A DNA stretch of 64,000 bases from an uncultured Kiloniellaceae bacterium (GTDB lineage Bacteria; Pseudomonadota; Alphaproteobacteria; Kiloniellales; Kiloniellaceae), in the NCBI GenBank assembly GCA_947493695.1, contig CANLSF010000001.1, positions 186,001 to 250,000 of the forward strand, read 5' to 3'. Positions 12,255 through 48,861 of this stretch are shown here, in pieces. The position numbers and the translations under genes are program-made. The notes under the pieces are model-generated. The model was given only the letters and a program-made list of their open reading frames with translations, was not told the DNA's origin and ran no database searches. The first letter of the stretch is position 1. Each line of letters starts with the position of its first letter.

Positions 12255-12866
12255 TTGGCTCACGATCATGATCATCACAATGCGCCGCCTTCAGATATAG
12301 CAATGCGCGTCAAAGCGCTTGAGACGCTGCTGAGTGAGAAAGGACTTGTGGATTCTTCGGCCATCGACACGGTGATCGAACTCTATGAGACAAAGATCGG
12401 CCCCCGGAACGGCGCCGCCGTGGTCGCACGTGCCTGGAGCGATCCGGACTATAAAGCGCGACTGCTCGAAAACGGAACAAAAGCAATTGCCGAGTTGGGT
12501 TTCGAGGGTGTTCAGGGTGAAGACATGATGGTCGTGGAGAACACGGACAGCGTCCACAATGTGGTCGTCTGCACGCTTTGCTCCTGCTATCCTTGGCCAA
12601 CTCTTGGACTGCCGCCGGTCTGGTATAAGAGCGCGCCCTATCGATCCAAAGTCGTTCGCGACCCGCGCGGTGTCTTGTCGGAATTCGGGGTCGAACTGCC
12701 GGATTCTGTCGAAATAAGAGTCTGGGACAGCAACGCGGAGCTGCGCTATCTGGTCCTGCCCAACCGCCCTGCCGGTACCGACGACCTGAGCGAAGCCGAG
12801 TTGGCCGAACTGGTAACTCGGGATTCGATGATCGGAACCGCACTGGTCGCAGCACCCGCGTCTTAA
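12255..12866 (+). CDS. nthA: Nitrile hydratase alpha subunit, cobalt type
   Basis: 203 residues matching the nitrile hydratase/thiocyanate hydrolase metal-binding subunit. The claw-setting motif [11 protein letters not shown] gives ligands Cys106, Cys109 and Cys111 with Ser110; Thr107 after the first Cys marks the cobalt type (iron enzymes have Ser). In the family two of the cysteines are oxidised to sulfinate and sulfenate. It hydrates nitriles to amides in the cytoplasm together with the beta subunit, here encoded by the next two genes. The start is a TTG preceded by GGAGAG; no ATG gives a better N-terminus. A histidine-rich start (HDHDHH) may help metal acquisition. Confidence 0.92.
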
Positions 12867-12900
12867 GTCAGCGTGCAATCAGACTCTAAAGGAACGCACC

Positions 12901-13215
12901 ATGAATGGAATCCACGATCTCGGCGGAATGCATGGCCTGGGGCCAATCGACCAGGAAGCGAATGAGCCCTACTTCCATGAAGAATGGGAGGGACGTGTTT
13001 TCGGCATGTTCTTCGCGAACTTCGCCCAGGGTCATTTCAACGTCGATCAGTTCCGCCACGCCATCGAACGGATGGATCCGGCGGAATATCTGCAAAGTTC
13101 CTACTACGAGCATTGGCTGCATGCCTTCGAAACCCTTCTGCACGAAAAAGGCATCATCAGCCCGGATGAACTCGACCGGAAACAGGCGGAACTGAGCCAA
13201 GCGGGAGATAGCTGA
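12901..13215 (+). CDS. Nitrile hydratase beta subunit, N-terminal half encoded as a separate gene
   Basis: 104 residues equal to the first half of an ordinary beta subunit: MNGIHDLGGMHGLGPI opens it, followed by EPYFHEEWEGRVF, Arg57 in AIERM (the conserved active-site-facing arginine) and YYEHWLHAFETLL. It stops before the barrel domain, which is the next gene in another frame. The two overlap in the form TGATG. Separate halves are known in thiocyanate hydrolase and in toyocamycin nitrile hydratase, so a true three-subunit enzyme is plausible. The alternative is a single-base sequencing error or a recent frameshift. Confidence 0.88.
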   Translation: MNGIHDLGGMHGLGPIDQEANEPYFHEEWEGRVFGMFFANFAQGHFNVDQFRHAIERMDPAEYLQSSYYEHWLHAFETLLHEKGIISPDELDRKQAELSQAGDS

Positions 13216-13574
13216 TGCCCCTCCTTACCCGAGATATCGTTGGTGGCCTGGTGGCGGGCGGCGCCTCCTGCCGAATGGATGCCGAGGTCGCACCAAAGTT
13301 CAAGGCCGGCGACAAGGTCGCGACCCTCAACATCAACCCGGCGAGCCACACGCGCCTGCCACGCTATGTGCGCGGGAAACACGGAACGATCACTCATGAT
13401 CACGGCGTCTTTGCTTTCCCGGACAGCTCTGCTGAAAGCGGAACACATAGCGACCCGCAACATGTCTACAGCGTGCGCTTCGAGGGGGAAGAGCTTTGGG
13501 GTAAAGATGCGAACGCGAATGCCTGTCTCTACATCGATATGTTCGACAGCTATCTGGAAGCGGCAGAGTCATGA
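13215..13574 (+). CDS. Nitrile hydratase beta subunit, C-terminal half encoded as a separate gene
   Basis: 119 residues forming the SH3-like beta barrel of the beta subunit. The conserved ASHTRLPRYVRGKHG (residues 43-57) carries the arginines that contact the oxidised cysteine ligands, followed by HGVFAFPD and QHVYSVRFEGEELWG. The ATG shares a base with the upstream stop and has its own GGGAG 8 bases earlier, which argues for real independent initiation. Its own stop overlaps the start of the accessory gene as ATGA, so all four genes look translationally coupled. Confidence 0.88.
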   Translation: MPLLTRDIVGGLVAGGASCRMDAEVAPKFKAGDKVATLNINPASHTRLPRYVRGKHGTITHDHGVFAFPDSSAESGTHSDPQHVYSVRFEGEELWGKDANANACLYIDMFDSYLEAAES

Positions 13575-13924
13575 CTGAGATGCCAGACTTACCCTGGACC
13601 ACCTCCGAGGGGCCGGTATTCAAAGCCCCCTGGGAAGCGGCGGCCTTTGCCATGACCGTACGGCTGCACGAAGAAAAGCACTTCACCTGGCCAGAGTGGG
13701 CGGATCATCTTGCTGCCGAGATTGCAGATGCCCGCCAGCGCGGCGAACCGGATCTGGGCGACACCTATTATGAGCACTGGTTGAATGCGTTGGAAAAAAT
13801 TGTCGTCGCCAAAGGGCTCGCGTCGCACGATGAGCTTGGTCAGCTAAAGCAAGACTGGATTCACTCGACACTTGCAACACCCCACGGACAACCGATCGAG
13901 CTCAAACGCAGCTCTCGCGCATGA
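13571..13924 (+). CDS. Nitrile hydratase accessory/activator protein
   Basis: 117 residues resembling the small protein found after cobalt nitrile hydratases (P14K/NhlE type), itself a relative of the beta N-terminal half: PVFKAPWEAAAFAMTVRLHEEKHFTWPEWADHL and YYEHWLNALEKIVVAKGL are the family hallmarks. It is thought to deliver cobalt-loaded alpha subunit by self-subunit swapping. It overlaps the beta C-terminal gene by four bases. The presence of a separate, later WTPEWADHL-type protein confirms that the gene at 12901 is a subunit and not the activator. Confidence 0.85.
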   Translation: MTEMPDLPWTTSEGPVFKAPWEAAAFAMTVRLHEEKHFTWPEWADHLAAEIADARQRGEPDLGDTYYEHWLNALEKIVVAKGLASHDELGQLKQDWIHSTLATPHGQPIELKRSSRA

Positions 13925-32901: not shown

Positions 32902-33336
32902 TTAAACGGCGCTTTGTTGCCCGTTCAGTTTTCGCAGCAACCCGTTCAACTGCGCGGCATCGTCCGGATTAAGCCTGCTCTCCAAAGACGCCTGAACCGG
33001 CGAGAGATGACTTTCGCAACGCGCCAAAAGCTCAAGGCCAAAATCAGAGATATAGACCAGGACCCTGCGCTGGTCTCCAATATCCTGTTTGCGGTGAACC
33101 AACGAGCGTGTGGTCATACGGTCGACCACCTTTGATAGAGCCGACATCGTCATCAACACGATTTGCGAGAGTTCAGACATTGTCCGGCCTCCGCCATTGT
33201 CCAAAGCCCGCAAAACCCGCCAGTGTTCGACCGGCAGCTCTTCCTGCCTGAGAGCAGCGTCCAACTGACCATGTACAGACCGATGCGCCTGAGCCAGGAG
33301 ATAAGGCAAAGAATTCGTCAGAGAGTCAGCTGACAT
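32902..33336 (-). CDS. MarR-family transcriptional regulator
   Basis: 144 residues with the MarR winged helix: PVEHWRVLRALDNGGGRTMSELSQIVLMTMSALSKVVDRMTTRSLVHRK followed by the wing DIGDQRRVLVYIS. The frame is open 25 residues further upstream, but those residues are hydrophobic and out of family, so ATG 33336 is chosen. It is divergent from the AmiC-like gene and may control it; the ligand could be an amide or aromatic acid. Confidence 0.83.
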   Translation of the reverse strand: MSADSLTNSLPYLLAQAHRSVHGQLDAALRQEELPVEHWRVLRALDNGGGRTMSELSQIVLMTMSALSKVVDRMTTRSLVHRKQDIGDQRRVLVYISDFGLELLARCESHLSPVQASLESRLNPDDAAQLNGLLRKLNGQQSAV

Positions 33337-33421
33337 GAAAGATCCCAAAGTAACAAAACACGCTAAAGTCACGAGATAGCCCGTCCGCAGCAAAAATGGA
33401 AGGGCAATCAATCACGAGCCT

Positions 33422-33610
33422 TTGCCTTCATACTCTACAATCACCGAGATTGGACCAGATTTAACGGCCTTGCTTATCCCAAGTCTGCGCCCTGAATCAA
33501 CGCTTTACGCGGAAGACTTGGAATTCCTGCGGTTATATTGGACACTGCGTCAACAAGAAGCGGCGGAACAAAGCCGTGCAGAAACAAATGCGATGGGGAG
33601 CATGGCTTGA
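33422..33610 (+). CDS. Small hypothetical protein coupled to the AmiC-like gene
   Basis: A 62-codon frame starting at TTG whose TGA stop overlaps the TTG start of the next gene (TTGA), a usual coupling arrangement. The peptide is acidic with a helical, glutamate-rich C-terminal half (EDLEFLRLYWTLRQQEAAEQ). I do not recognise it; it does not look like the ANTAR domain of AmiR. There is no good ribosome site at its own start, so expression is uncertain. Confidence 0.4.
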   Translation: MPSYSTITEIGPDLTALLIPSLRPESTLYAEDLEFLRLYWTLRQQEAAEQSRAETNAMGSMA

Positions 33611-34662
33611 AAACGAGCGGATCCTATCGGGTCGGTCTTTTCATCCCCACGAGCGGTGCCGCCGGAATCTGGGGATCGTCTTGCCGAGCCTGCGCCGAAC
33701 TTGCAGCTGAGGAGTTAAACTCCGAAGGCGGCATTGACGGTCGCCCGATCAGTCTGACCCTTGTAAATGCCGGTAACGACCCGGAGCTCGTCGCGCGGGA
33801 GGCCGAAAGCCTTCATGAAAGCGGCATGATCGATGCCGTGGTCGGCATGCATACCAGCGACGTACGCGAAGCCATCGCGGACCGGATTGCAGGTGACCTC
33901 CCCTACGTCTACACACCGTTGTTCGAAGGCGGACCGGCAGGACAGGGCGTGTTCTGTATCGGAGAGACGCCGGGCCAACAACTCCTGCCGGGCCTCGACT
34001 GGCTCTCGGAACGCTTCCGCTTGAAGCGCTGGTTCCTACTTGGCAACGATTACATCTGGCCACGCGCCTCGCACGCTGCCGTGCACCGGCATTTTCACAG
34101 CGGCGACCGCGGTATTGTGGGGCAGGCTTACCTGCCCTTCGGGACAAAAAACTTCGATCACGTCCTTGAGCGTATCCGCCGTGCCCGGCCCGACGGCCTG
34201 CTCCTCTCGCTGGTCGGAGACGACTGTATTCGCTTCAACCGGGCCTTCGCTCGAAACCCCATAGCCAGCAAGGTGATTCGTTTTTCCTGCGCAGTAGAGG
34301 AAAATACTCTGCTTGGCATCGGTGCGGATTCCACTGATGGCCTTTTTTCTGCGTCCGGCTATTTCTCGGCGCTTGAAACCGCCGCCAACGGCGCCTTCCG
34401 CGAGCGCTATCATACCCGCTTCGGGGAGCGCGGGCCGATGCTCAATTCTATCGGTGAATCCCTCTATGAAGGCCTGTATTTTTTGCAGGCACTCTCGGAG
34501 GCCTCACAAACATCCCATTGGAGCAAACCCGGAACGGCGCTGCCGATGAAGGGCCCCCGGGGCGCCATATTTCAGGAAACCGGGCATTCCCGGATGCCGA
34601 TGTATCTCGCGGAAGCCGAAGGCCATGCCTTCCATCTCGTCGAAAAGCTGTCGGACGAATAA
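33607..34662 (+). CDS. AmiC-like amide-sensing/type I periplasmic-binding fold protein, cytoplasmic
   Basis: 351 residues of the branched-chain/amide-binding fold: YRVGLFIPTSGAAGIWGSSCRACAELAAEELNSEGGIDGRPI at the start, then LPYVYTPLFEGGP and FLLGNDYIWPRA, as in AmiC and urea/amide-binding proteins. There is no signal peptide before the first strand (LKTSGSYRVG), so it is likely a cytoplasmic sensor rather than a transport protein. In Pseudomonas AmiC binds amides and restrains the antiterminator AmiR; no AmiR is found here. The TTG start at 33607 overlaps the stop of a small frame; an upstream start at 33538 is possible in frame but not preferred. Confidence 0.75.
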   Translation: MKTSGSYRVGLFIPTSGAAGIWGSSCRACAELAAEELNSEGGIDGRPISLTLVNAGNDPELVAREAESLHESGMIDAVVGMHTSDVREAIADRIAGDLPYVYTPLFEGGPAGQGVFCIGETPGQQLLPGLDWLSERFRLKRWFLLGNDYIWPRASHAAVHRHFHSGDRGIVGQAYLPFGTKNFDHVLERIRRARPDGLLLSLVGDDCIRFNRAFARNPIASKVIRFSCAVEENTLLGIGADSTDGLFSASGYFSALETAANGAFRERYHTRFGERGPMLNSIGESLYEGLYFLQALSEASQTSHWSKPGTALPMKGPRGAIFQETGHSRMPMYLAEAEGHAFHLVEKLSDE

Positions 34663-34866: not shown

Positions 34867-36447
34867 GTGGACATAGTTGTAACTCTTATTGTCCTCGTCG
34901 TCGTCCTGGCGGTTGCGATTGCCTTTCTGCAAAGGTTCTATCGCAAGGCCACGCGAGAGAAGGCCTTGATCCGGACCGGTGCCGGAGGACAAAAGGTGGT
35001 TATGGACGGTGGTGCACTCGTCCTGCCCTTCCTGCATCGCGCCGATCAGATCGACATGCGCACCATGCGACTGGAAATCCTGCGGACCGGCGAAAAGTCG
35101 ATGATGTCCGAAGACCGCCTCCGCCTTGATCTGGAGATGGAGTTCTACCTGCGGGTTCAGCCCACACCCGAGGGCATTGCAACCGCCGCGCAGGCAATCG
35201 GCTCACGGGCGCTAAATCCCGAGAACCTGAAGAACCTCTTCGGCGGCCGGTTTATCGACGCCATGCAAGCCGTAGTCGCAACCCAGACTATGGACGACCT
35301 GCACGAAAACCGGGGTATCTTCGTTACAAAAGTGGCCGAAACCCTGAAAGAAAACCTGGCGCAAAACGGCCTTTATCTTGAGTCGGCCTCCCTCGTACGC
35401 CTCGACCAGGCCCCCTTCAGCGCGTTGGATGACAACAACGCCTTCAATGCCGTGGGCATGCGCCGTCTGGCCGAAGTGATCTCCGCCAATAAGAAAAAGC
35501 GTGCCGAGATCGAAGCCGACGCGGATGTCGCTGTCCGTCACACGCAACTGGACTCCCTGAAGCGAAAACTGGAACTCGACCGCGAACAGCAGCAGGCCGA
35601 AATCGCCCAAACCCTGACCATCGAGAAACTGAAGGCCAAATCCGCGGCGGAAACCGAATCGACGCGCCAACAGGCGGAAGAAACCTCGGCGCGGGCAAGG
35701 ATCGAACGGGAACGCGGCGTCAAGGTCGCGGAGATCGAGCGCGACCGCTCCCTGCGAGAAAACGAGGTTACAGCCCTTCTGGCAGCGGAAACCGCAAAAC
35801 TCGACAGTCAGATCGCACTGGCCCGCAAACGCGCCGAAGAAATCTCGGCTCAGGCCGAAACCGAAGCCAAGCGCGGTGAGATCATCGAAGCTCAAGAGAA
35901 GGTTCAACTTGAAAAGGACCGCCTTGCCGCCGAGCGCGAGCGGGCAACCGCGATGATCCGTGCTAAGCAGGAAAGCGAGGTTTCGGGCGAACAGACCCGC
36001 AGCGCCAATTCCACCCTGCAGGAAAGCGCCGCCGCAGAAGCCAGCGCAACCGAGCGCCGGGCAGAGGCGACCCTGAAACTGATGCAGGCGGAAGCCGAAG
36101 GCAAAGCCGCGATGATCGAGGCGGAAAATATCGCCAGCAGCGAACTTCTGCGCATGAAGCTCGATACTCACAAGATCGACAAGCTGCCTGAGATTGCAGA
36201 ACGCATGGCGAAACCCCTTGAGAAGATCGATTCCATCCGGATCAATCAGGTCTCGGGACTAGGTCAGATGGGTGGTGGCAACGGCGGCGGTTCATCAGGT
36301 GCGCCCATGTCCGGCGCGGTCGATGGCATCCTTAACCTCGCCCTCCAGCTTCCCGCCATGCAGAAACTCGGTGAAAGCATCGGCGTCAACCTTGACCTGG
36401 GGAATAGGGAGAGCGACGCTTCAAACACAGCGGACAAAGCAGATTAA
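34867..36447 (+). CDS. Flotillin/YqiK-type SPFH membrane protein
   Basis: 526 residues. One membrane helix at about 2-24 (VVTLIVLVVVLAVAIAFL) is followed by an SPFH domain to about residue 200 and a long alanine/glutamate/arginine-rich coiled coil (about 205-450), then a glycine-rich linker and short C-terminal helix. Flotillins scaffold membrane microdomains and hold protein complexes. The start is GTG with GAGGGGAGA before it. It precedes the amide/urea-type importer by 54 bases in the same direction, which suggests it is part of that operon and may organise the importer in the membrane. That role is inference. Confidence 0.85.
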   Translation: MDIVVTLIVLVVVLAVAIAFLQRFYRKATREKALIRTGAGGQKVVMDGGALVLPFLHRADQIDMRTMRLEILRTGEKSMMSEDRLRLDLEMEFYLRVQPTPEGIATAAQAIGSRALNPENLKNLFGGRFIDAMQAVVATQTMDDLHENRGIFVTKVAETLKENLAQNGLYLESASLVRLDQAPFSALDDNNAFNAVGMRRLAEVISANKKKRAEIEADADVAVRHTQLDSLKRKLELDREQQQAEIAQTLTIEKLKAKSAAETESTRQQAEETSARARIERERGVKVAEIERDRSLRENEVTALLAAETAKLDSQIALARKRAEEISAQAETEAKRGEIIEAQEKVQLEKDRLAAERERATAMIRAKQESEVSGEQTRSANSTLQESAAAEASATERRAEATLKLMQAEAEGKAAMIEAENIASSELLRMKLDTHKIDKLPEIAERMAKPLEKIDSIRINQVSGLGQMGGGNGGGSSGAPMSGAVDGILNLALQLPAMQKLGESIGVNLDLGNRESDASNTADKAD

Positions 36448-36501: not shown

Positions 36502-37722
36502 ATGTCTGTAAATCGCAGAAAAGTTTTAAAAGGCGCAGCCGCCACCACCGCGCTCCTGGCGGCGCCATCTGTTCTCCGTGCGGAAGAAACCATCAAACTC
36601 GGTTCCATTCTCGACACTTCCGGCATTTTCGATCTCTATGGCAAGCCGATGGATAAGGCCGTCGATATGGCCATCGACGAGATCAATACCGATGGCGGTA
36701 TTGCCGGACGTATGATCGAGAAGGTCGCATACGACACCCAGTCGGATATGGCACTCTACACCCAGTACGGCCAGCGCCTTGCGCGACAGGATAAAGTGGA
36801 TGTGGTACACGGTGGTATTCTCTCGGCATCCCGCGAGGCCATCCGGCCAACCCTGCGCAAAAACAAAGTGCTCTACTTCTATAACGTCCAATACGAAGGT
36901 GGCGTCTGCGACCGCAACATCTTCTGCACAGGCATCACTCCCGCGCAGCAGGCAGAGGTGCTCGTCCCGGCGGCTATGGAGAAATGGGGCAAGAAGGTCT
37001 ACGTGCTGGCCGCCGACTACAACTACGGCCAAATCACCGCAAAATGGATTCAGCACTACGCCAAGCAGGCCGGCGGCGAAGTCGTTCAGGTCGATTTCTT
37101 CCCGCTTGATGTTGCCGACTTCGGGTCTACCATCACCAAGATCCAGGATGCCGCACCCGATATGATCATGTCGGTGCTGGTCGGCGGCGCGCACCTGTCG
37201 TTTTACCGTCAGTGGGCCGCGGCAGGCATGAACAAGAAGATCCCTATGGCTTCGACCGTGATGGGCGCAGGCAATGAGCATGTCGTCCTGACCAAGGAAG
37301 AAGGCGACGGCATCATGCTGGCCTATTCCTTCTCGAAAGAACTCGACACGCCCGCCAACACAAGCTTCCTGGAGCGCTGGACCAAACGCTTCGGCGCGAC
37401 GGATGATGTGCATGAGCTTGCGGTAGCGACCTACCAGGGCGTTCACCTCTGGGCTGAAGCCGCGCGCAAAGCAGGTTCAGTTGAACGCGAGGACGTTATC
37501 GCGGCGCTGGAAGCCGGTGCGTCGTTCGATGGTCCAACCGGGAAGATCTCCATCGACCCCAAAACCCATCACGCGACCTTCGACGTTCATCTGATCGAGG
37601 TCAAAGATCAGAAAATGGCCGTTCAGAAGACCTTCGTGCAACGGCCACCGGTCGATACACAAACGGTCTGCAATCTGGAAGAAAATCCAAAGGACACCAC
37701 GCAGTACGAGATCGACATCTGA
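36502..37722 (+). CDS. Amide/urea-type ABC importer solute-binding protein (UrtA/FmdD-like), Tat signal
   Basis: 406 residues. A twin-arginine signal NRRKVLKGAAATTALLAAPSVLRA (Arg5-Arg6) exports it folded. The mature start IKLGSILDTSGIFDLYGKPMDKAVDMAIDEIN and ADYNYGQITAKWIQHY fit the urea/short-chain amide group of the branched-chain amino-acid-binding family. It is followed by two permeases and two ATPases in the standard order. The amidase fused to the last ATPase supports an amide as the cargo rather than urea; there are no urease genes here. Confidence 0.85.
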   Translation: MSVNRRKVLKGAAATTALLAAPSVLRAEETIKLGSILDTSGIFDLYGKPMDKAVDMAIDEINTDGGIAGRMIEKVAYDTQSDMALYTQYGQRLARQDKVDVVHGGILSASREAIRPTLRKNKVLYFYNVQYEGGVCDRNIFCTGITPAQQAEVLVPAAMEKWGKKVYVLAADYNYGQITAKWIQHYAKQAGGEVVQVDFFPLDVADFGSTITKIQDAAPDMIMSVLVGGAHLSFYRQWAAAGMNKKIPMASTVMGAGNEHVVLTKEEGDGIMLAYSFSKELDTPANTSFLERWTKRFGATDDVHELAVATYQGVHLWAEAARKAGSVEREDVIAALEAGASFDGPTGKISIDPKTHHATFDVHLIEVKDQKMAVQKTFVQRPPVDTQTVCNLEENPKDTTQYEIDI

Positions 37723-37777
37723 TTTTCGTGGTGTGGCAGAGCAGAGTTAGTAAAACGACCGGTCCGGAGCGTCCTTG

Positions 37778-38644
37778 ATGGATTATTCTGCAGTCGTCGT
37801 CATGGAGATCTGTTACGCAATCGCGGTGCTGATATTAATCAGCGCAGGGCTTGCAGTGATCTTTGGCATGATGCGCGTCATCAATCTAGCCCACGGCGAA
37901 TTCCTGACGCTTGGCGGCTATGCGGCCATTATGTCGAACCAGGCCGGTCTCAACATCTATCTGTCGATCCTGGTTGCCGCCCCCTTGGCGGCAGCCATTT
38001 TCGGCTTCCTGGTCGAGCGGCTGATCGTGCGGTTTCTCTATGGCCGCCTGATCAACACCATGCTCGCCACCTGGGGACTCAGTCTGGCCATGATCGGCGG
38101 CTTCAGTATGATCTTCGGTAATACCACGACCGGTATCGCCACGCCGATTTCCGGGTTCGCGCTCGGGAACTATCAGGTCAGCGGCTACAACCTCTTTGTC
38201 ATCGCCATCGCGGTACTGGTCATCGGCGGGGTTTATCTGATCCTGAAGACCACCCGCGCCGGTCTGGTCGCACGCGGTGCCATGCAGAACCCGGAAATGG
38301 CACAGGCTTTCGGCTACAACACCAGCCGCGTCTATATGTTCACCTTCGTGGCGGGTTCCGCGCTCGCCGGGCTGGCAGGTGGGGTTATGGCACCGCTGGT
38401 CGGGATTAACCCAGCCGCAGGCGCCGCCTACATCGCAAAGGCCTTTATCACCGTGATCTCCGGTGGCACAGCGGTGATTTCAGGGACGCTGGCAAGCGCA
38501 GGACTCTTCGGTTTTGTATCACAGACCTTCACCTTTCTCGCGACTCCGGTGGTGGGCGAGATCGCCCTGCTTGTGGCCGCCGTGATCCTGCTGCGCCTCC
38601 TGCCGACCGGGATCACCGGTCGCTTCCTGAAAGATAAGGTGTAG
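37778..38644 (+). CDS. Amide/urea-type ABC importer permease 1 (LivH/UrtB-like)
   Basis: 288 residues, about eight helices, LivH family. The hallmark VIFGMMRVINLAHGEFLTLGGYAA is near residue 27 and a coupling region EMAQAFGYNTSRVYMFTFVAGSALAGLAGG near residue 167. A TTG just upstream (37775) could also initiate, but the ATG at 37778 is preferred. Cytoplasmic-membrane half of the transport channel. Confidence 0.88.
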   Translation: MDYSAVVVMEICYAIAVLILISAGLAVIFGMMRVINLAHGEFLTLGGYAAIMSNQAGLNIYLSILVAAPLAAAIFGFLVERLIVRFLYGRLINTMLATWGLSLAMIGGFSMIFGNTTTGIATPISGFALGNYQVSGYNLFVIAIAVLVIGGVYLILKTTRAGLVARGAMQNPEMAQAFGYNTSRVYMFTFVAGSALAGLAGGVMAPLVGINPAAGAAYIAKAFITVISGGTAVISGTLASAGLFGFVSQTFTFLATPVVGEIALLVAAVILLRLLPTGITGRFLKDKV

Positions 38645-38650
38645 TCGGCA

Positions 38651-39682
38651 ATGTTACGCGAAACCGCCTTCTCCGCCGCTATCGGGCTTGCCATCCTTGT
38701 GGTGGCGCCTTTGCTCTTCGATGACATCTACACCCTGACGGTTTTGACGATTTACGGTCTGCTCGCCCTGAGCCTAGGATTCATCTGGGGCTTCGGCGGC
38801 ATTCTCTGTTTCGGTCAGGCGGCCTTTTTCGGTCTGGGCGCTTACGGCTTTGCCATCGCCTCAATCAACTTCGCGGACCCCTGGATCGCTGCCCTCGTTT
38901 CACTGATCATTCCCGCGCTCTTCGCCGCAGTGCTGGGCGCCATGCTGTTTTATGGCCGCCTGAGCGATGTCTACCTCGCGGTGGTCACGTTGGTGGTCAC
39001 TCTGATTCTCTTCAAGTTCATGAATTCCACGGCCGGCAACGCCTACAAGATCGGCGATGCCCGGCTCGGCGGCTTTAACGGCATTCCCGGCTTCGACACC
39101 CTGACCCTGCCCTGGGATTCCAGCGAGTACCTGATCAATGAGTCGCTCTATTACTTCTGCGCCCTGATCCTGTTGCTTGCGTTTCTGGGCTTGCGCTGGC
39201 TGCTGAGTGCGCCCTTCGGACGCATCCTGGTCGGTATCCGCGAAAATGAGTTGCGTGCGGAGTTGGTCGGCTACGACGTCCGCCTTGTCAAAACGCTGGC
39301 CTTCGCCATCGGCGGAATGCTGGCGGGAATGTCCGGGATGCTCTTCGCCAATTGGGCAGAGATCGTCACACCCGCCCTCTTCAGCCTCAGCCAGTCGGCG
39401 GAGATCATCATCTGGGTCATCGTGGGCGGTGCGGGCAGTCTGCTGGGACCGATCGTCGGGGCCTTTGTTTTAGGCGCGCTGAAATTTTTCCTCGGTCAAC
39501 AGACCCTGGTGAACAATCTCTTCGTCCTCGGCAGCATCCTGGTGGTGACAGTCCTGTTCCTTCCGCGCGGGATCGTGCCCACGCTGACGCCTTTCTTCAA
39601 AAGACATCGGCGCAGGTCGAGAGCTGCGGGGAACGGCAAACGCGGACGTGGCTCCAGACGGAGGGCGCGCCATGCACGCTGA
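38651..39682 (+). CDS. Amide/urea-type ABC importer permease 2 (LivM/UrtC-like)
   Basis: 343 residues with about nine helices. LivM traits include YGLLALSLGFIWGFGGILCFGQAAFFGLGAY and the coupling helix RENELRAELVGYDVRLVKTLAFAIGGMLAGMSG. The C-terminal tail is highly basic (KRHRRRSRAAGNGKRGRGSRRRARHAR). It overlaps the start of the first ATPase gene by 11 bases; the basic tail is partly the price of that overlap. Confidence 0.88.
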   Translation: MLRETAFSAAIGLAILVVAPLLFDDIYTLTVLTIYGLLALSLGFIWGFGGILCFGQAAFFGLGAYGFAIASINFADPWIAALVSLIIPALFAAVLGAMLFYGRLSDVYLAVVTLVVTLILFKFMNSTAGNAYKIGDARLGGFNGIPGFDTLTLPWDSSEYLINESLYYFCALILLLAFLGLRWLLSAPFGRILVGIRENELRAELVGYDVRLVKTLAFAIGGMLAGMSGMLFANWAEIVTPALFSLSQSAEIIIWVIVGGAGSLLGPIVGAFVLGALKFFLGQQTLVNNLFVLGSILVVTVLFLPRGIVPTLTPFFKRHRRRSRAAGNGKRGRGSRRRARHAR

Positions 39683-40391
39683 CGCCATCCTGGAGACCCG
39701 TGCCGTGACCATGCGTTTCGGCGGTGTGACGGCGTTAGAGAATGTCGACTTCCGGCTGGAGAATGACGAGTTGCGCTGTCTGATCGGCCCCAACGGCGCG
39801 GGAAAGAGTACCTTTTTCAAATGCCTGACCGGCCTGCTGACTCCAAGCGAAGGCAGCATCTACCTGCAGGGCGAGGACTGCACCGGTATCCACCCTCACG
39901 CCATCGCACGGCGCGGCGTAGGCATCAAAACCCAGGTGCCAAGCGTTATGAACACGCTCTCTGCCCATGAAAACATCTGGCTTTCGGCAAGGCAGGCTCA
40001 GAGCAGCCGCGAAGCGAACCGCACGACCGCGGAAGTTCTCGAACGCCTCGATCTCGAAGACATTGCGTACGACGAAGTCGCGACCCTGGCCCACGGCAAA
40101 CGGCAGCTGGTGGAGCTGGGCATCGTCATGGCTGGGCGACCTTCCCTTGTGCTCCTCGACGAACCGGCAGCGGGCCTGACCGGTGAGGAGGTCGAGCGTA
40201 TGGTTGCGGTGATCCACGAACTGAACCGGGACGCGGCCTTGGTCATCGTGGAACACGACATGCATTTCGTGCGCAGTATCGCCAAGACCGTGACGGTCTT
40301 TCATCAGGGCCGGGTTCTGACCGAAGCGCCGGTCGACGCGGTCATGGCCGATCCGGCGGTCCGCGACGTCTATCTGGGAAAACGGGCATGA
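39672..40391 (+). CDS. Amide/urea-type ABC importer ATPase 1 (LivG/UrtD-like)
   Basis: 239 residues. Walker A GPNGAGKST, signature region ATLAHGKRQLVELGIVMAGRPSLVLLDEPAAGLTGEE and the switch His in VIVEHDMHFV are present. The signature loop reads LAHGKRQ instead of LSGGQ, as is normal for the LivG/UrtD group. The start ATG 39672 lies inside the end of the permease gene and its stop overlaps the next start by four bases. Confidence 0.88.
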   Translation: MHADAILETRAVTMRFGGVTALENVDFRLENDELRCLIGPNGAGKSTFFKCLTGLLTPSEGSIYLQGEDCTGIHPHAIARRGVGIKTQVPSVMNTLSAHENIWLSARQAQSSREANRTTAEVLERLDLEDIAYDEVATLAHGKRQLVELGIVMAGRPSLVLLDEPAAGLTGEEVERMVAVIHELNRDAALVIVEHDMHFVRSIAKTVTVFHQGRVLTEAPVDAVMADPAVRDVYLGKRA

Positions 40392-42862
40392 ACGCGATCA
40401 CCTCCACCGCCCCGCAGAGAGATCAGGACAACGGAGACAAGACGCCGCTCCTGCTGGAAGTCAAAAACCTGCTTGGCGGGTACGGTGACATTCCGGTTCT
40501 GCGCGGCGTTAACCTGGCGGTGCGCGAAGGCGAGGCCGTCGGTCTGCTCGGCCACAACGGCATGGGAAAATCCACCCTGCTGAAAAGCGTCATGGGCTTT
40601 CTGCCGACCACCGGCGGGTCCGTAATTTTCGATGGCGACGACATCACCAAAAGCAGCCCACATGAGCGCGCCCGCGCCGGGCTGGGCTACGTACCCCAGG
40701 GCCGGGGCATCTTCAGCCAGCTCAGTGTGCTGGACAACCTGCGCTTTGCCTGGTCGTCGGAAACCGGCGGTACCGCGGACGAAGCCGTGGATCGCCTGCT
40801 GGGATGGTTCCCGCGCCTCACTCGCCTGCTGGATCGCCAGGGCGGTGCGCTCTCCGGTGGTGAGCAACAGTTGCTTGCGCTCGCGCGCTGCCTGATCGCT
40901 GAACCCTTGATGATGCTGCTGGACGAGCCGACCGAAGGTATCCAGCCCTCGATCATCGAGGAGATCGAAGAGACCCTCAACACCATCCGGGCCGAAACCA
41001 ATCTGACCATTCTGGTGGTGGAGCAGAACCTGGAATTTCTGAGCGCCGTGTCCAGTCGTCTCATGATCCTGGAACGTGGTGCGATCACCGGTGAAGTGCC
41101 CATCGATGCGGCGGTCAATCCGGCCTTGATCGAGGAATTCGTCGGCTTCGGTGCAGCCCGGCAGACAAGCGGTGGAGCAGTTGCCCCCAAAAGCATCGCA
41201 CCAATAGCAGCGCCCCCTGCCCGAGCCGCCGCGAGCCCCACAGATGCCGATTTGTCCTTTACCCGTCCGGGCACGACGACGGCGAAACGCCCTGCTGCCC
41301 AACCCGCCCCTGACAATACCCCACCGGCGCCACCTAGGGAGACCTACATGACCGTTCGACGCCCCACACTGGACCAAATGCGCGGAGTCGTCGGCGGGCT
41401 CGGCATGTCCATGAACGACCGCGAGATCATGGATTACATGGCGATCATGGAGGATACTTTTCAGGCCTATGACCGCGTTGATGCCCTGCCGGATAATCTG
41501 CCGCAGGTGAAGTATCCGCGCACGCCAGGCCGCCGTCCGAGCCAGGAGGAAAACCCGCTCAACGCCTGGTACATCAAGACCGATATCCGGGGTGCACCGA
41601 CCGGGCCGCTGGAAGGCAAGCGCATTGCCCTGAAGGACAACGTCTGCCTTGCGGGCGTGCCGATGATGAACGGTGCCTCGACCCTGGAAGGTTACACCCC
41701 TGATATCGACGCCACTATCGTCACCCGCATTCTCGATGCGGGCGGCACCATCGTCGGCAAGGCCCATTGCGAGTACTTCTGCCTTTCGGGCGGCAGCCAT
41801 ACCAACGCCACCGGCCCGGTGCATAATCCCTACAAGCTGGGTCATTCGGCGGGCGGGTCTTCCTCGGGTTCCGGTGCACTGGTCGGACTGGGCGAGGTCG
41901 AGATGGCCATCGGCGGCGACCAGGGCGGTTCCATCCGTATCCCCGCCTCGCTTTGCGGCTGCTATGGCATGAAGGCAACTCACGGTCTGGTGCCCTACAC
42001 CGGCGTCATGCCCATCGAGCCGACCATCGACCACACTGGCCCCATGACTGCAAACGTGCAGGACAACGCCTTGATGCTGGAGGTCATCGCGGGCGAAGAC
42101 GGCCTCGATCCGCGCCAGTATGCGCCGAAGATCGACAAATATCAGAGCGCGCTGGGACGCGGCGTCGCCGGGATGCGCATCGGTCTGGTGCGCGAGGGTT
42201 TCGGCCTGCCCAACAGCGAAGCCGACGTGGACGCCAAGGTGCGGCAGGCGGCCGATACTCTGCGCGGTCTGGGCGCGACGGTCGATGAGATTTCCGTGCC
42301 CATCCACCTGGACGGTACCGCGATCTGGACACCCATCGCCCTGGAAGGCCTGACCGACATCATGATGCACGGCAACGGCTTTGCGACCGGGTGGGAAGGC
42401 CTCTACGTGACCAGCCTGCTGGATCATCATGCCAACTGGCGCAGCCGCGCCGACGAACTCTCGCCGAGCCTGAAGATCTGTATGTTCATCGGCGAGTACA
42501 TGCTCAAGCATCATCGCGGGCACTACTACGCCAAGGCACAGAACCTGAACCGCCGCCTGAAGGACGAATACGATCAGGCCTTGCAGCGCTATGACCTGCT
42601 GATGATGCCGACTCTGCCCATGAAGGCGCCACCGATTCCCGCACCGGACGCACCGTTGTCGCTATATATCCAGCGCGCCTTCGAGATGATCCCCAACACC
42701 GCGCCCTTCGACGCCAGCGGCCATCCGGCCATGTCGATCCCCTGCGGCTTGAGCGAGGGTCTGCCGGTCGGTCTGCAGCTGATCGGCAAGCACTATGACG
42801 AAAGCACCATCTACCGTGCCGCCCATGCCTTCGAGCAGGCGGGCGACTGGAAGACGATGTAA
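40388..42862 (+). CDS. ABC importer ATPase 2 (LivF/UrtE-like) fused in frame to an amidase-signature hydrolase
   Basis: 824 residues. Residues 20-255 are a complete UrtE/LivF ATPase: GHNGMGKS (55-62), LSGGEQQ (155-161), [10 protein letters not shown] and VVEQN. Residues 260-320 are a proline/alanine-rich linker with no fold. Residues 321-824 are an amidase-signature enzyme with Lys416 (ALKDN), cis-Ser in [13 protein letters not shown] and nucleophile Ser515 ([13 protein letters not shown]). The [13 protein letters not shown] and [17 protein letters not shown] segments resemble the enantioselective amidases linked to nitrile hydratases in Rhodococcus. Met321 (ATG 41348) is preceded by AGGGAGA at good spacing, so amidase alone may also be made. 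The family normally encodes these two as separate proteins. Confidence 0.85.
41348..42862 (+). CDS. Possible independent amidase from an internal start within the fusion
   Basis: The ATG at 41348 starts [20 protein letters not shown], the natural beginning of the amidase family, and TAGGGAGACCTAC before it contains a strong ribosome site. The 504-residue product would be a full-length amidase hydrolysing amides to carboxylic acid and ammonia. It is in frame with the upstream ATPase, so the cell may make both a fused and a free form. This is an alternative product of the same DNA, not an additional gene. Confidence 0.6.
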
Positions 42863-42863
42863 A

Positions 42864-44639
<1,776 letters not shown>

Positions 44640-45882: not shown

Positions 45883-46506
45883 ATGTCTATCACGCCCCTC
45901 GCAACCGACCTCCTTCTCGTCATCGACGTGCAGTATGACTTCTGTCCCGGCGGAGGACTCGCGGTTACAGACGGCGATGCGGTGGTGCCGGAGATTAATC
46001 GCATTGCAGAGGACTTCGCGCATGTGGTGGTGACCCAGGACTGGCATCCGGCGGGGCATTCTTCCTTTGCCTCCAGCCATGACGGCGCGGCGCCTTTTTC
46101 GCAGGTGACCATGCCGTACGGGGCGCAGACGCTCTGGCCGGATCATTGCGTGCAGGGCACCAGAGGTGCGGAGCTGCATGACGGGTTGGAACTGCCGCAG
46201 GCGGAGATGGTGATCCGGAAGGGCTACCGGACCGAGATCGATTCCTACTCGGCCTTTTTCGAGAACGATCAGAAGACCCCGACCGGCCTCGCGGGCTATC
46301 TGCGCGAGCGTGGGTTTCAGAGGGTCTTTTGTGTCGGGCTGGCCACGGATTTCTGTGTGCGCTTCTCGGCGGTGGATGCACGCAAACAGGGCTTCGAGGC
46401 GACCGTGATCGACTCCGCCTGCCGGGCCATCGATCTGGACGGTTCGCTGGCCGCCGCCAAAAGCGAGATGACCGGGTTGGGTGTGGAGCTCATGCCGGGC
46501 TGGTAG
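45883..46506 (+). CDS. pncA: Nicotinamidase/pyrazinamidase
   Basis: 207 residues of the isochorismatase-like fold. The catalytic triad Asp15 (VIDVQYDF), Lys113 (VIRKGYR) and Cys158 (GLATDFCV) and the metal ligands Asp53, His55 and His59 (DWHPAGH) are present. It hydrolyses nicotinamide to nicotinate for NAD recycling. It is separate from its neighbours and likely has its own promoter. Confidence 0.9.
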   Translation: MSITPLATDLLLVIDVQYDFCPGGGLAVTDGDAVVPEINRIAEDFAHVVVTQDWHPAGHSSFASSHDGAAPFSQVTMPYGAQTLWPDHCVQGTRGAELHDGLELPQAEMVIRKGYRTEIDSYSAFFENDQKTPTGLAGYLRERGFQRVFCVGLATDFCVRFSAVDARKQGFEATVIDSACRAIDLDGSLAAAKSEMTGLGVELMPGW

Positions 46507-46799: not shown

Positions 46800-48740
46800 C
46801 TACCTCCGAATTTCCAAACGCTTCATGCGTCGGTGCAGAGTCGAGCGGCTGACCCCGAGCAGCTCGGCGGCTGCCGAGACCTTGCCGCCACAACGCTTCA
46901 AGGTCTGCTCGATCACAAGGCGCTCGGTATCGACCTTGTGCGAGGAAGCCTCCTTCGGATCCAACGTCGCGGTCAGGCGCGCGGGGAGCGCGTCGAGTTC
47001 CACCGCCTCGCCTTCGCTCACCGCGATTGCGTAGCGCAGAGTCTGCTGCAGCTCGCGGACATTGCCGGGCCAGGGGTAGGTTTCGAAGAGATGGGACACC
47101 TCCGGCGCGAGCGTGAGATGCCGCCCCGCCGCTTCGCAGAGTCCATCGAACATTTCGGCAATGAAGAGCCTGCGGTCCCGGCGGGCGCGTAGCGGCGGAA
47201 TAATCAGGTTCGCCCCGGCGATGCGATAGAAGAGGTCTTCCCGGAAGCGTCCTTCCGCCACCAGCGCCTCAAGATCCTGATGGGTCGAGGAGATCACCAG
47301 AAGGTCCAGCGCAATCGGCGCGCCGCCCAACGGGGTCAGTTCCATCTCCGACAACACCCGCAAGAGGCGCGTCTGCAGCTCCAGCGGCATGTCACCGATT
47401 TCGTCCAGGAAGAGCACGCCGCCGTTGGCCTCGGCGACCTTGCCGCGATAGCCGCTCTTGGCAGCCCCGGTGAAGGCGCCCGGGCGGTAGCCGAAGAGTT
47501 CGCCCTCGATCAGCGTCTCGGGAATGGCCGCGCAGTTGACCGCCACGAAAGGGCCCTTGGCGCGCGTGCTGATCCGATGGAGGTGCTTGGTGAAGACCTC
47601 CTTGCCGCTGCCGGTCTCACCCGTGACCAGGATCGGCAGGCCCGCATCCACAATCCGTGCGGCGAGCGCGAAGTTGCGTTCCATCGCAGGATCGGCGCCG
47701 AAGATGACGTCGGAGGTTTGAGCCGGTTTTGTTTTCCGTCTTGCCTTGACCGGTGGCGTGTCTTCTCGCGCAACCGGTCGACGCGGGGGTTCGCCGTCCG
47801 AAAGACAGCGCGCGAAGAAGCGGCCTGACGTGACGTCTTCCAGGACTATCGGCTCCTCGCTTTCGGCGCGGTTTCGGATGAAGAGATCCACTTGATCCTG
47901 CAGCCGGTATTCCATCGTCGAACGTTCGATCACCGGATCCAGCAGTGTCTTGGCCGCAGGCGACCAGGCTGCAATCCGACCGTTCGACGCCATGGCGAGA
48001 AGAGTTGAACTGGCCAGATCGCTGAAGCGCGAATCCTGCGAGAGAGCGACTATAGCGTGATCAGTCTGGAACTGCGCCATGAAGAGCTGATTCTCGATCC
48101 TGCGCGCGGCATTGGCAACGATCTGCATGACAAGCTGTTGGGTCTGATGATCCGTCGGGCGCGGTGTCGACACGTCCAATGCCGCGACCAGTTCCTGGTC
48201 CGGAGAATAGATCGGCGCGACCGTACAGGTCAGCGGCGTGTTATGGATCGCGAAGTGGTCATCCATCACCACCGAGATCGGCTGACCGGTCGCGAGGCAG
48301 GTACCAACGCCATTGGTGCCTTGAAAATCCTCTTTCCAGATCACACCCGGATACAGCCCGGAATCCCGGGCTTCCTTGTCGATTTCATCACTGCAGCGCA
48401 CATCGACGGTGATGCCGTCTGCGTTGGCCAGCAAGACCACATAATCCAGTTTCGCCAGGCGCTCATGCAGCCGGTCCAGCTCCGGCGCGAAAATCGATTT
48501 CAGCACATCGAACTGATCGCGCAGCGGCGTGACCTCGACATGACTTAATATGACGGGTTGGCGCACTTTGTGGGGCTCAATGCCATGCGACAGTACACAG
48601 CGCCGCCAGGACGCCTCTATGGTCCGGGGGATTGCATTTCGTTTCGAGCGTGTCTTCGGGTTGGGGACCGCCGCGTCGTGCGCGATTGCAGCGAGCACCC
48701 GTTTTACGTGACGTGTTTCCGCACCACCATCCAGGTTCAT
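46800..48740 (-). CDS. acoR: Sigma-54-dependent acetoin catabolism regulator (AcoR-like)
   Basis: 646 residues. An N-terminal GAF-type sensory region (about 60-240, with TNGVGTCLATGQPISVVMDDHF) precedes an AAA+ domain containing GETGSGKE, the sigma-54 contact loop GAFTGA and FLDEIGDMPLELQTRLLRVL, and a Fis-type helix-turn-helix at the C-terminus (CGGKVSAAAELLGVSRSTLHRRMK). It would activate the divergent acoABC promoter in response to acetoin. The start at 48740 is preferred over the 30-residue longer frame. Divergent from acoA with a sigma-54 promoter and dyad sites between them. Confidence 0.87.
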   Translation of the reverse strand: MNLDGGAETRHVKRVLAAIAHDAAVPNPKTRSKRNAIPRTIEASWRRCVLSHGIEPHKVRQPVILSHVEVTPLRDQFDVLKSIFAPELDRLHERLAKLDYVVLLANADGITVDVRCSDEIDKEARDSGLYPGVIWKEDFQGTNGVGTCLATGQPISVVMDDHFAIHNTPLTCTVAPIYSPDQELVAALDVSTPRPTDHQTQQLVMQIVANAARRIENQLFMAQFQTDHAIVALSQDSRFSDLASSTLLAMASNGRIAAWSPAAKTLLDPVIERSTMEYRLQDQVDLFIRNRAESEEPIVLEDVTSGRFFARCLSDGEPPRRPVAREDTPPVKARRKTKPAQTSDVIFGADPAMERNFALAARIVDAGLPILVTGETGSGKEVFTKHLHRISTRAKGPFVAVNCAAIPETLIEGELFGYRPGAFTGAAKSGYRGKVAEANGGVLFLDEIGDMPLELQTRLLRVLSEMELTPLGGAPIALDLLVISSTHQDLEALVAEGRFREDLFYRIAGANLIIPPLRARRDRRLFIAEMFDGLCEAAGRHLTLAPEVSHLFETYPWPGNVRELQQTLRYAIAVSEGEAVELDALPARLTATLDPKEASSHKVDTERLVIEQTLKRCGGKVSAAAELLGVSRSTLHRRMKRLEIRR

Positions 48741-48820
48741 TATGTCCTCCCACGCCGCTTTTTTCGCAGCTTGTGGGGAGGAGTATAGCACCCAATGGGT
48801 TAAAAACGGAGTCGCTTCGA

Positions 48821-48861
48821 ACTGTGTCATTGCGACAGTCCTGGCTGCGACAGTTGTCGCA
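48821..48861 (+). promoter_or_regulatory. Putative AcoR upstream activating sites
   Basis: Two dyads. The second, TGCGACAGTTGTCGCA (48846-48861), has perfect seven-base arms. The first, ACTGTGTCATTGCGACAGT (48821-48839), has five-base perfect ends. They share the half-site TGCGACAGT and lie 50-90 bases upstream of the sigma-54 promoter, the usual place for enhancer binding. Confidence 0.65.

Follow-up and report, generated by a model that had tools for sequence, protein, structure and literature searches.

A fused importer ATPase-amidase gene with a conserved internal start in a flotillin-linked operon

In the window, by which we mean the whole 64,000-nucleotide stretch of DNA analyzed, a single gene at 40388..42862 (+) encodes a UrtE-type ABC ATPase and an amidase in one frame of 824 amino acids, with an ATG and a ribosome-binding site inside that frame at the start of the amidase. 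Comparison with many genomes supported both the fusion and the internal start. We consider it fairly probable, from sequence comparison, that the gene specifies two products within a flotillin-linked module for amide uptake, hydrolysis, and activation. Initiation at 40388 would yield an importer ATPase tethered to an amidase by a disordered linker, and initiation at 41348 would yield free amidase. The importer, consisting of UrtABCD-like proteins and the fused UrtE, would take up an amide, which the tethered amidase would hydrolyze at the point of entry, and the CoA ligase encoded next would activate the resulting acid.

Anatomy of the fused gene and its operon

The window's reading frame at 40388-42862 contains 824 codons and zero internal stops. 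Pfam placed an ABC_tran domain at residues 38-182 (110.8 bits) and an Amidase domain at residues 395-808, and the NCBIfam amidase model PRK07235.1 matched residues 321-823 over model positions 1-505 of 506 with 810 bits against a cutoff of 545, which assigns the enzyme to the PRK07235 subfamily. Since this match starts at model position 1, the amidase begins at the internal Met, residue 321. The ATPase part (residues 1-258; 40388..41161, +) is thus followed by a linker (residues 259-320; 41162..41347, +) and by a full-length amidase (41348..42862, +), the proposed separate product of 504 amino acids. The linker, put at 60 residues in the initial annotation, has 62, of which 28 are Ala or Pro. 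The annotated internal ATG at 41348 is codon 321 and is separated by six bases from its AGGGAG site (41336..41341, +); the ATG and a similarly placed ribosome-binding site recur across relatives. The computed masses of the fused and internal-start products, 88.1 kDa and 54.4 kDa, agree with the sizes of about 88 and 54 kDa that had been expected. The frame was intact at 87 to 91% identity in three searched genomes of the same genus besides the window's own, so a local sequencing error does not account for it; together with the intact frame in many other genomes, this rules out an assembly error or frameshift.

Both halves carry the residues expected of their families. In the ATPase, residues 55-63, 155-161, and 177-184, which we take to be the Walker A, signature, and Walker B motifs, were invariant or at least 90% conserved among 38 fused proteins, with the exception of S62, and identify an ABC ATPase of the UrtE/LivF type. 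In the amidase, K416, S491, and S515 (amidase numbering 96, 171, and 195) were invariant among 38 fused proteins, and an alignment with PDB entry 3a1k over residues 17-497 placed the same letters at the same positions. Lys96, Ser171, and Ser195 presumably form the Ser-cisSer-Lys triad, by which the protein is an amidase-signature enzyme; the next-best amidase match in the bacterium's own genome was just 32% identical. A structure model of the fused protein built from 38 sequences (mean pLDDT 75.1, pTM 0.55) was confident for the ATPase, with block means of 84 to 96 over residues 21-240. Nearly all of residues 253-318 fell below 50, consistent with a disordered linker, and the chain was folded again from about residue 320, with helices from residue 328. 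Parts of the amidase core also had values under 50, and the assignment of the amidase fold is therefore based on sequence.

The fused gene lies in a compact operon. A MarR-family regulator gene (32902..33411, -; Pfam MarR_2 44.4 bits, cutoff 27) is divergent from the operon, which starts with a gene for an AmiC-like protein of the periplasmic-binding fold (33538..34662, +; Peripla_BP_6 221.5 bits). Genes at this position in relatives carry the annotation amiC or substrate-binding domain protein, and the product is a probable amide sensor. Next comes a flotillin with SPFH/Band 7 and Flot domains (34867..36447, +; Band_7 54.1 and Flot 110.5 bits, both above cutoff), which belongs to the flotillins by these domains and scored 52.3 against 700 bits for the FloT equivalog. 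It is followed by a UrtA-like substrate-binding protein (36502..37722, +; Peripla_BP_6; NCBIfam urea_ABC_arch 364 bits, below 494.8), UrtB-like and UrtC-like permeases (37775..38644 and 38651..39682, both +; Pfam BPD_transp_2 in each, with the UrtB and UrtC models below cutoff), a UrtD-like ATPase (39648..40391, +; NCBIfam UrtD 234 bits, below 304.1), the UrtE-amidase gene, and an AMP-binding acyl-CoA ligase (42864..44639, +; NCBIfam PRK12583 865.9 bits, cutoff 832). The stop codon of the UrtD-like gene and the start codon of the fused gene share bases (ATGA), and the CoA ligase gene starts one base past the amidase stop. Urt/Liv-type systems import their substrates, and amidase-signature enzymes hydrolyze theirs. 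The earlier description of the transporter as an amide/urea-type importer was right as to kind, but urea itself is not indicated as the substrate, because all five subunits fell under the NCBIfam cutoffs for urea transporters (UrtE, 253.7 versus 285.8 bits).

Several neighboring genes were also recorded. A nicotinamidase-like gene at 45883-46506 (NCBIfam 198.2 bits, cutoff 174) recurs downstream of the fused gene in loci of the same genus and in L022, L028, L032, L036, and L038, and a gene for a GAF/sigma-54 activator/Fis-type regulator (46800-48830, -) adjoins the operon here and in the same-genus loci L013, L014, and L155. About 21 kb before the flotillin gene is a nitrile hydratase operon (12255-13924). 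Its alpha subunit scored 312.8 against the equivalog cutoff of 249.85 and stayed under that for thiocyanate hydrolase (185.3 versus 291.45), its beta subunit is split into genes for the N-terminal half (12901-13215) and the C-terminal half (13215-13574), and an accessory protein gene follows (13571-13924). The genome has four nitrile hydratase alpha genes, including the one in the window, and these genes fit a host that uses nitriles and amides.

Distribution of the fusion, its linked genes, and its linker

A search of other genomes for the same fusion yielded 81 fused loci, nonredundant at 98%. Four of 23 genomes in the family sample had a match at E 1e-110: the window's own genome and three others from its genus, each with the fusion; none of the 19 genomes from other genera matched at that threshold. 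The class sample gave 52 matches in 385 genomes at E 1e-140, and 11 of these genomes, including the window's own and one of the same genus, carry the ATPase and amidase in one stop-free frame, one more, G207, being truncated by its contig end. Among 398 genomes of the phylum sample, 20 matched at E 1e-170 and only the window's own was fused; both parts were matched as separate genes in G752. Within the class to which G724 belongs, a sample of 369 genomes gave five matches at E 1e-150, none of them fused. A contig scan returned loci whose record titles name Alpha-, Beta-, and Gammaproteobacteria and SAR324, with many metagenome bins among them; the scan favors fused loci, because the query was the fused protein and the best 80 of 162 loci were kept. 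Where an ATPase lay upstream of the amidase (78 places from the contig scan and 2 from same-genus genomes), 79 of 80 were fused, L082 being separate. Altogether, the fusion was present at 90 of the 115 amidase places, a count in which some genomes appear twice. A plasmid search gave at least 28 records, among the matches listed, in which a single place covered 80% or more of the query; six of them were examined.

In the larger amidase tree, one change with support 95 separated 81 fused from 49 unfused rows, two contig-cut rows being uncounted, and no counted unfused row lay inside the fused clade. A quick IQ-TREE tree of 73 rows gave one change when the two contig-cut rows were left out and three if they were counted as a group of their own. 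The tree of the ATPase part, which is shorter and has long branches, required two changes, and a single clade was not rejected (p-AU 0.474). A single origin of the fusion fits the one change on the amidase tree, on which repeated recent fusions, a trivial explanation for a leftover start, found no support.

The fusion is associated with the flotillin and CoA ligase genes. In loci with at least 6.9 kb of upstream sequence, nonredundant at 98%, flotillin was found upstream in 66 of 67 fused loci (undetected in L061), in none of 10 loci with adjacent but separate genes, and beside 1 of 9 lone amidases, that one being the second amidase of L077, which sits beside a fused gene. The CoA ligase was downstream in 69 of 74 fused loci, five having none detected at the score used, in 0 of 11 adjacent but separate loci, and in 2 of 13 lone amidases (98% nonredundant), the last two being L090 and L091, both of which end at contig ends. 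On the tree this association reads as one joint gain followed by retention, not as many events. Two Sulfitobacter plasmids (L120 and L122) keep the gene order of the window in their public annotation. The whole operon is plasmid-borne in both, the plasmids are typed as nonmobilizable, and the fused protein is publicly named only "amidase," which hides the ATPase. The second amidase of L077, at 9095 and 58% identical, directly follows the fused gene and takes the place that the CoA ligase has in other fused loci.

The initial annotation had suggested that a transport motor bearing the enzyme for its cargo would couple the uptake of that cargo to its hydrolysis at the membrane. The linked flotillin and CoA ligase genes lend this coupling circumstantial support. 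Both products may exist with the fusion only setting the stoichiometry or location of the enzyme, without kinetic coupling or channeling, and we give this reading a substantial chance, somewhat short of even. A long, variable, disordered linker implies no fixed geometry and would at most raise the local concentration; against this, the co-gained flotillin and CoA ligase suggest, indirectly, a localized assembly line. The reading overlaps with our preferred explanation of two products within an uptake module, which does not require channeling.

The linker itself provided a test of whether the fusion is retained. The initial annotation named a stop or frameshift in the linker as evidence against it; none was present in the same-genus genomes, and in-frame stops occurred in 0 of 85 distinct linkers, compared with 38/85 and 33/85 in the other two forward frames. 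These linkers are hypervariable in sequence and range from 22 to 118 codons (median, 55), and they are rich in Ala, Pro, Ser, and Thr, a composition that fits a flexible tether. Between linkers L001 and L012, differences at the three codon positions numbered 17, 13, and 31; since third-position differences lead within the genus, its pattern is that of coding sequence under loose constraint (dN 0.280 and dS 1.072, against dN of 0.035 to 0.038 in its neighbors). Open linkers by chance are countered by the product of the shuffled no-stop probabilities, about 1e-20.8 over 41 representatives with relatedness ignored.

These observations bear on the proposal that the free amidase is the working enzyme and that the fused frame is merely translational coupling, the tethered form having no role of its own. 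The tight packing of the operon, with the ATGA overlap before the gene and the one-base gap after it, would suit such coupling, as would the strong internal Shine-Dalgarno (SD) site of most representatives. However, coupling needs no stop-free linker of 22 to 118 codons, the linker composition fits a tether, and the fused clade includes no counted unfused row; we regard the proposal as unlikely. Were the fusion of no use, stops and frameshifts in the linker ought to be tolerated, since the internal start would rescue the amidase. Stops would be harmless to the amidase, yet zero occur; the open linker and the internal start thus reinforce each other as arguments. Selection signatures were found for both products, and both the fusion and the free amidase look selected.

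Conservation of the internal start

All 90 fused places have an ATG that either coincides with the amidase start or precedes it by one to two codons. We compared the strength of the SD site there with that at other in-frame ATGs and other linker positions in sets of 90 sequences, 41 representatives at 85% identity, and 13 at 75% identity, and it was stronger at the internal ATG in each. In the 41 representatives, whose shared ancestry means that the P values overstate independence, the mean anti-SD energy was -6.11 at the internal ATG versus -2.77 at 1266 other in-frame ATGs (P = 7.6e-14), and energies of -4 or below were reached by 31/41 compared with 27.3% of the other ATGs. In the set of 13, the P value was 1.7e-4, with 9/13 at or below -4. 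An exact SD core of at least 4 bases was found in 78.0% versus 18.7%, in all three codon phases and in differing codons. With the amino acids fixed, synonymous choice favored the SD site (35/41 below the median, P = 1.3e-6); taken one by one, 6/41 representatives beat the synonymous null at 0.05. The SD site was weaker than -4 in 10/41, five of which fall in one divergent branch (L043, L089, L098, L099, and L100), and a longer anti-SD sequence, picked afterwards, left 8/41 weak. With that longer sequence the energy profile peaked sharply at the ATG (-6.57), whereas positions at least 9 bases away gave values between -0.03 and -1.7. In the divergent fused branch (L098, L099, L120, L122, and L124), GGTGA often precedes the internal start instead of an AGGAG-type sequence; L098 and L099 score -7.2 and -7.4 with the longer anti-SD.

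Local folding at the ATG averaged -7.66, against -13.24 at 1236 control ATGs, and was loosest from 0 to +15 relative to +45 to +120 at similar GC content. In the window's own gene this dip was not clean, a linker position 45 bases upstream of the ATG being equally loose. The fused frame therefore contains a conserved start codon and, in most representatives, an enriched ribosome-binding site.

A start of this kind might be a leftover of the separate amidase gene that preceded the fusion, with only the fused protein made and relevant. The internal ATG was once a true start, because the subfamily model starts at this Met and unfused relatives have a start and an SD site there; the 25 places not scored as fused, of which L090, L091, and L101 end at contig ends and may be fused, had a mean SD energy of -8.82 at their start. 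The weak SD site in 10/41 representatives would also suit a relic. Under the one-change tree, however, the relic would have persisted throughout a deeply diverged clade, in which amidase identity to the window's falls to 62.9%, and the start survived while the surrounding linker was rewritten in both sequence and length. The Met moves by one or two residues relative to a conserved Arg-Pro and is still kept in 90/90, and the SD site appears in every codon phase and is favored beyond what the amino acids require. These data make a leftover start improbable.

Proposed assembly and comparison with known systems

Under the favored explanation of one gene with two products, one UrtD/UrtE motor would carry one tethered amidase. 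Assuming that the enzyme is dimeric, the second subunit would come from the free amidase, which would also provide a soluble pool, and flotillin would scaffold the importer-amidase assembly. We put forward tentatively, as a doubtful but possible extension, an assembly rule in which each importer holds one tethered amidase that pairs with a free one; flotillin, the importer, the amidase dimer, and the CoA ligase would then make up an assembly line in a membrane microdomain. If so, the line would pass imported amide straight to hydrolysis and CoA activation, and the operon would encode a metabolon for uptake in bacteria, locked in from a single ancestor onward by the gene fusion and the internal start. 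The hand-off of cargo from importers to enzymes and the roles of flotillins in Gram-negative bacteria are hard to test, their partners being mostly unknown. This operon binds a transporter motor and an enzyme in one chain, apparently keeps the free enzyme, and links both to flotillin and a CoA ligase. With a small number of minor alterations, it could be used to probe the coupling of uptake and metabolism directly.

A search of open-access literature, by titles and abstract openings of the papers listed, found no fusion of an importer ATPase and a catabolic enzyme with a conserved internal start in an operon with flotillin and CoA ligase genes. The nearest known systems include Urt/Liv-type importers whose amidase gene lies separately downstream. 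Those of Tistrella mobilis pTM2 and Pleomorphomonas pSM30-1, for example, have the order UrtA-B-C-D-E-amidase with MarR and AmiC-like genes, but their ATPase and amidase are separate, and no flotillin or CoA ligase was detected beside them. The amidase of PDB entries 3a1i and 3a1k, which we take to be from Rhodococcus sp. N-771, is also an amidase-signature enzyme but stands alone without an ATPase. Fusions of enzymes with ABC proteins are known for exporters: PCAT exporters carry an N-terminal C39 peptidase, which acts on the cargo, within the ABC transporter polypeptide. They share with the fused gene a cargo-acting enzyme in a transporter polypeptide but differ in direction of transport and in having the enzyme N-terminal on the membrane-spanning chain.

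An excerpt of a study of Agrobacterium reports that detergent-resistant membranes contain some ABC transporter components, and that excerpt draws no tie to the present system (PMC8656257). The principle of one gene giving a long and a short product has precedents. In the C-rings of type III secretion systems, the internal-start C-terminal fragment of SctQ/YscQ is described, in the excerpt available, as required alongside the full-length form (PMC4295842); SctQ/YscQ is a ring component, whereas the gene described here places an enzyme on an ABC ATPase. A further precedent is the MthK potassium channel, where, according to an excerpt of the report, one gene gives a tethered domain and an internal-start free domain that co-assemble (PMC9440719). 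MthK builds a channel regulatory ring in this way rather than joining a transporter motor to a catabolic enzyme, and the co-assembly that is reported for MthK is proposed here for the tethered and free amidase.
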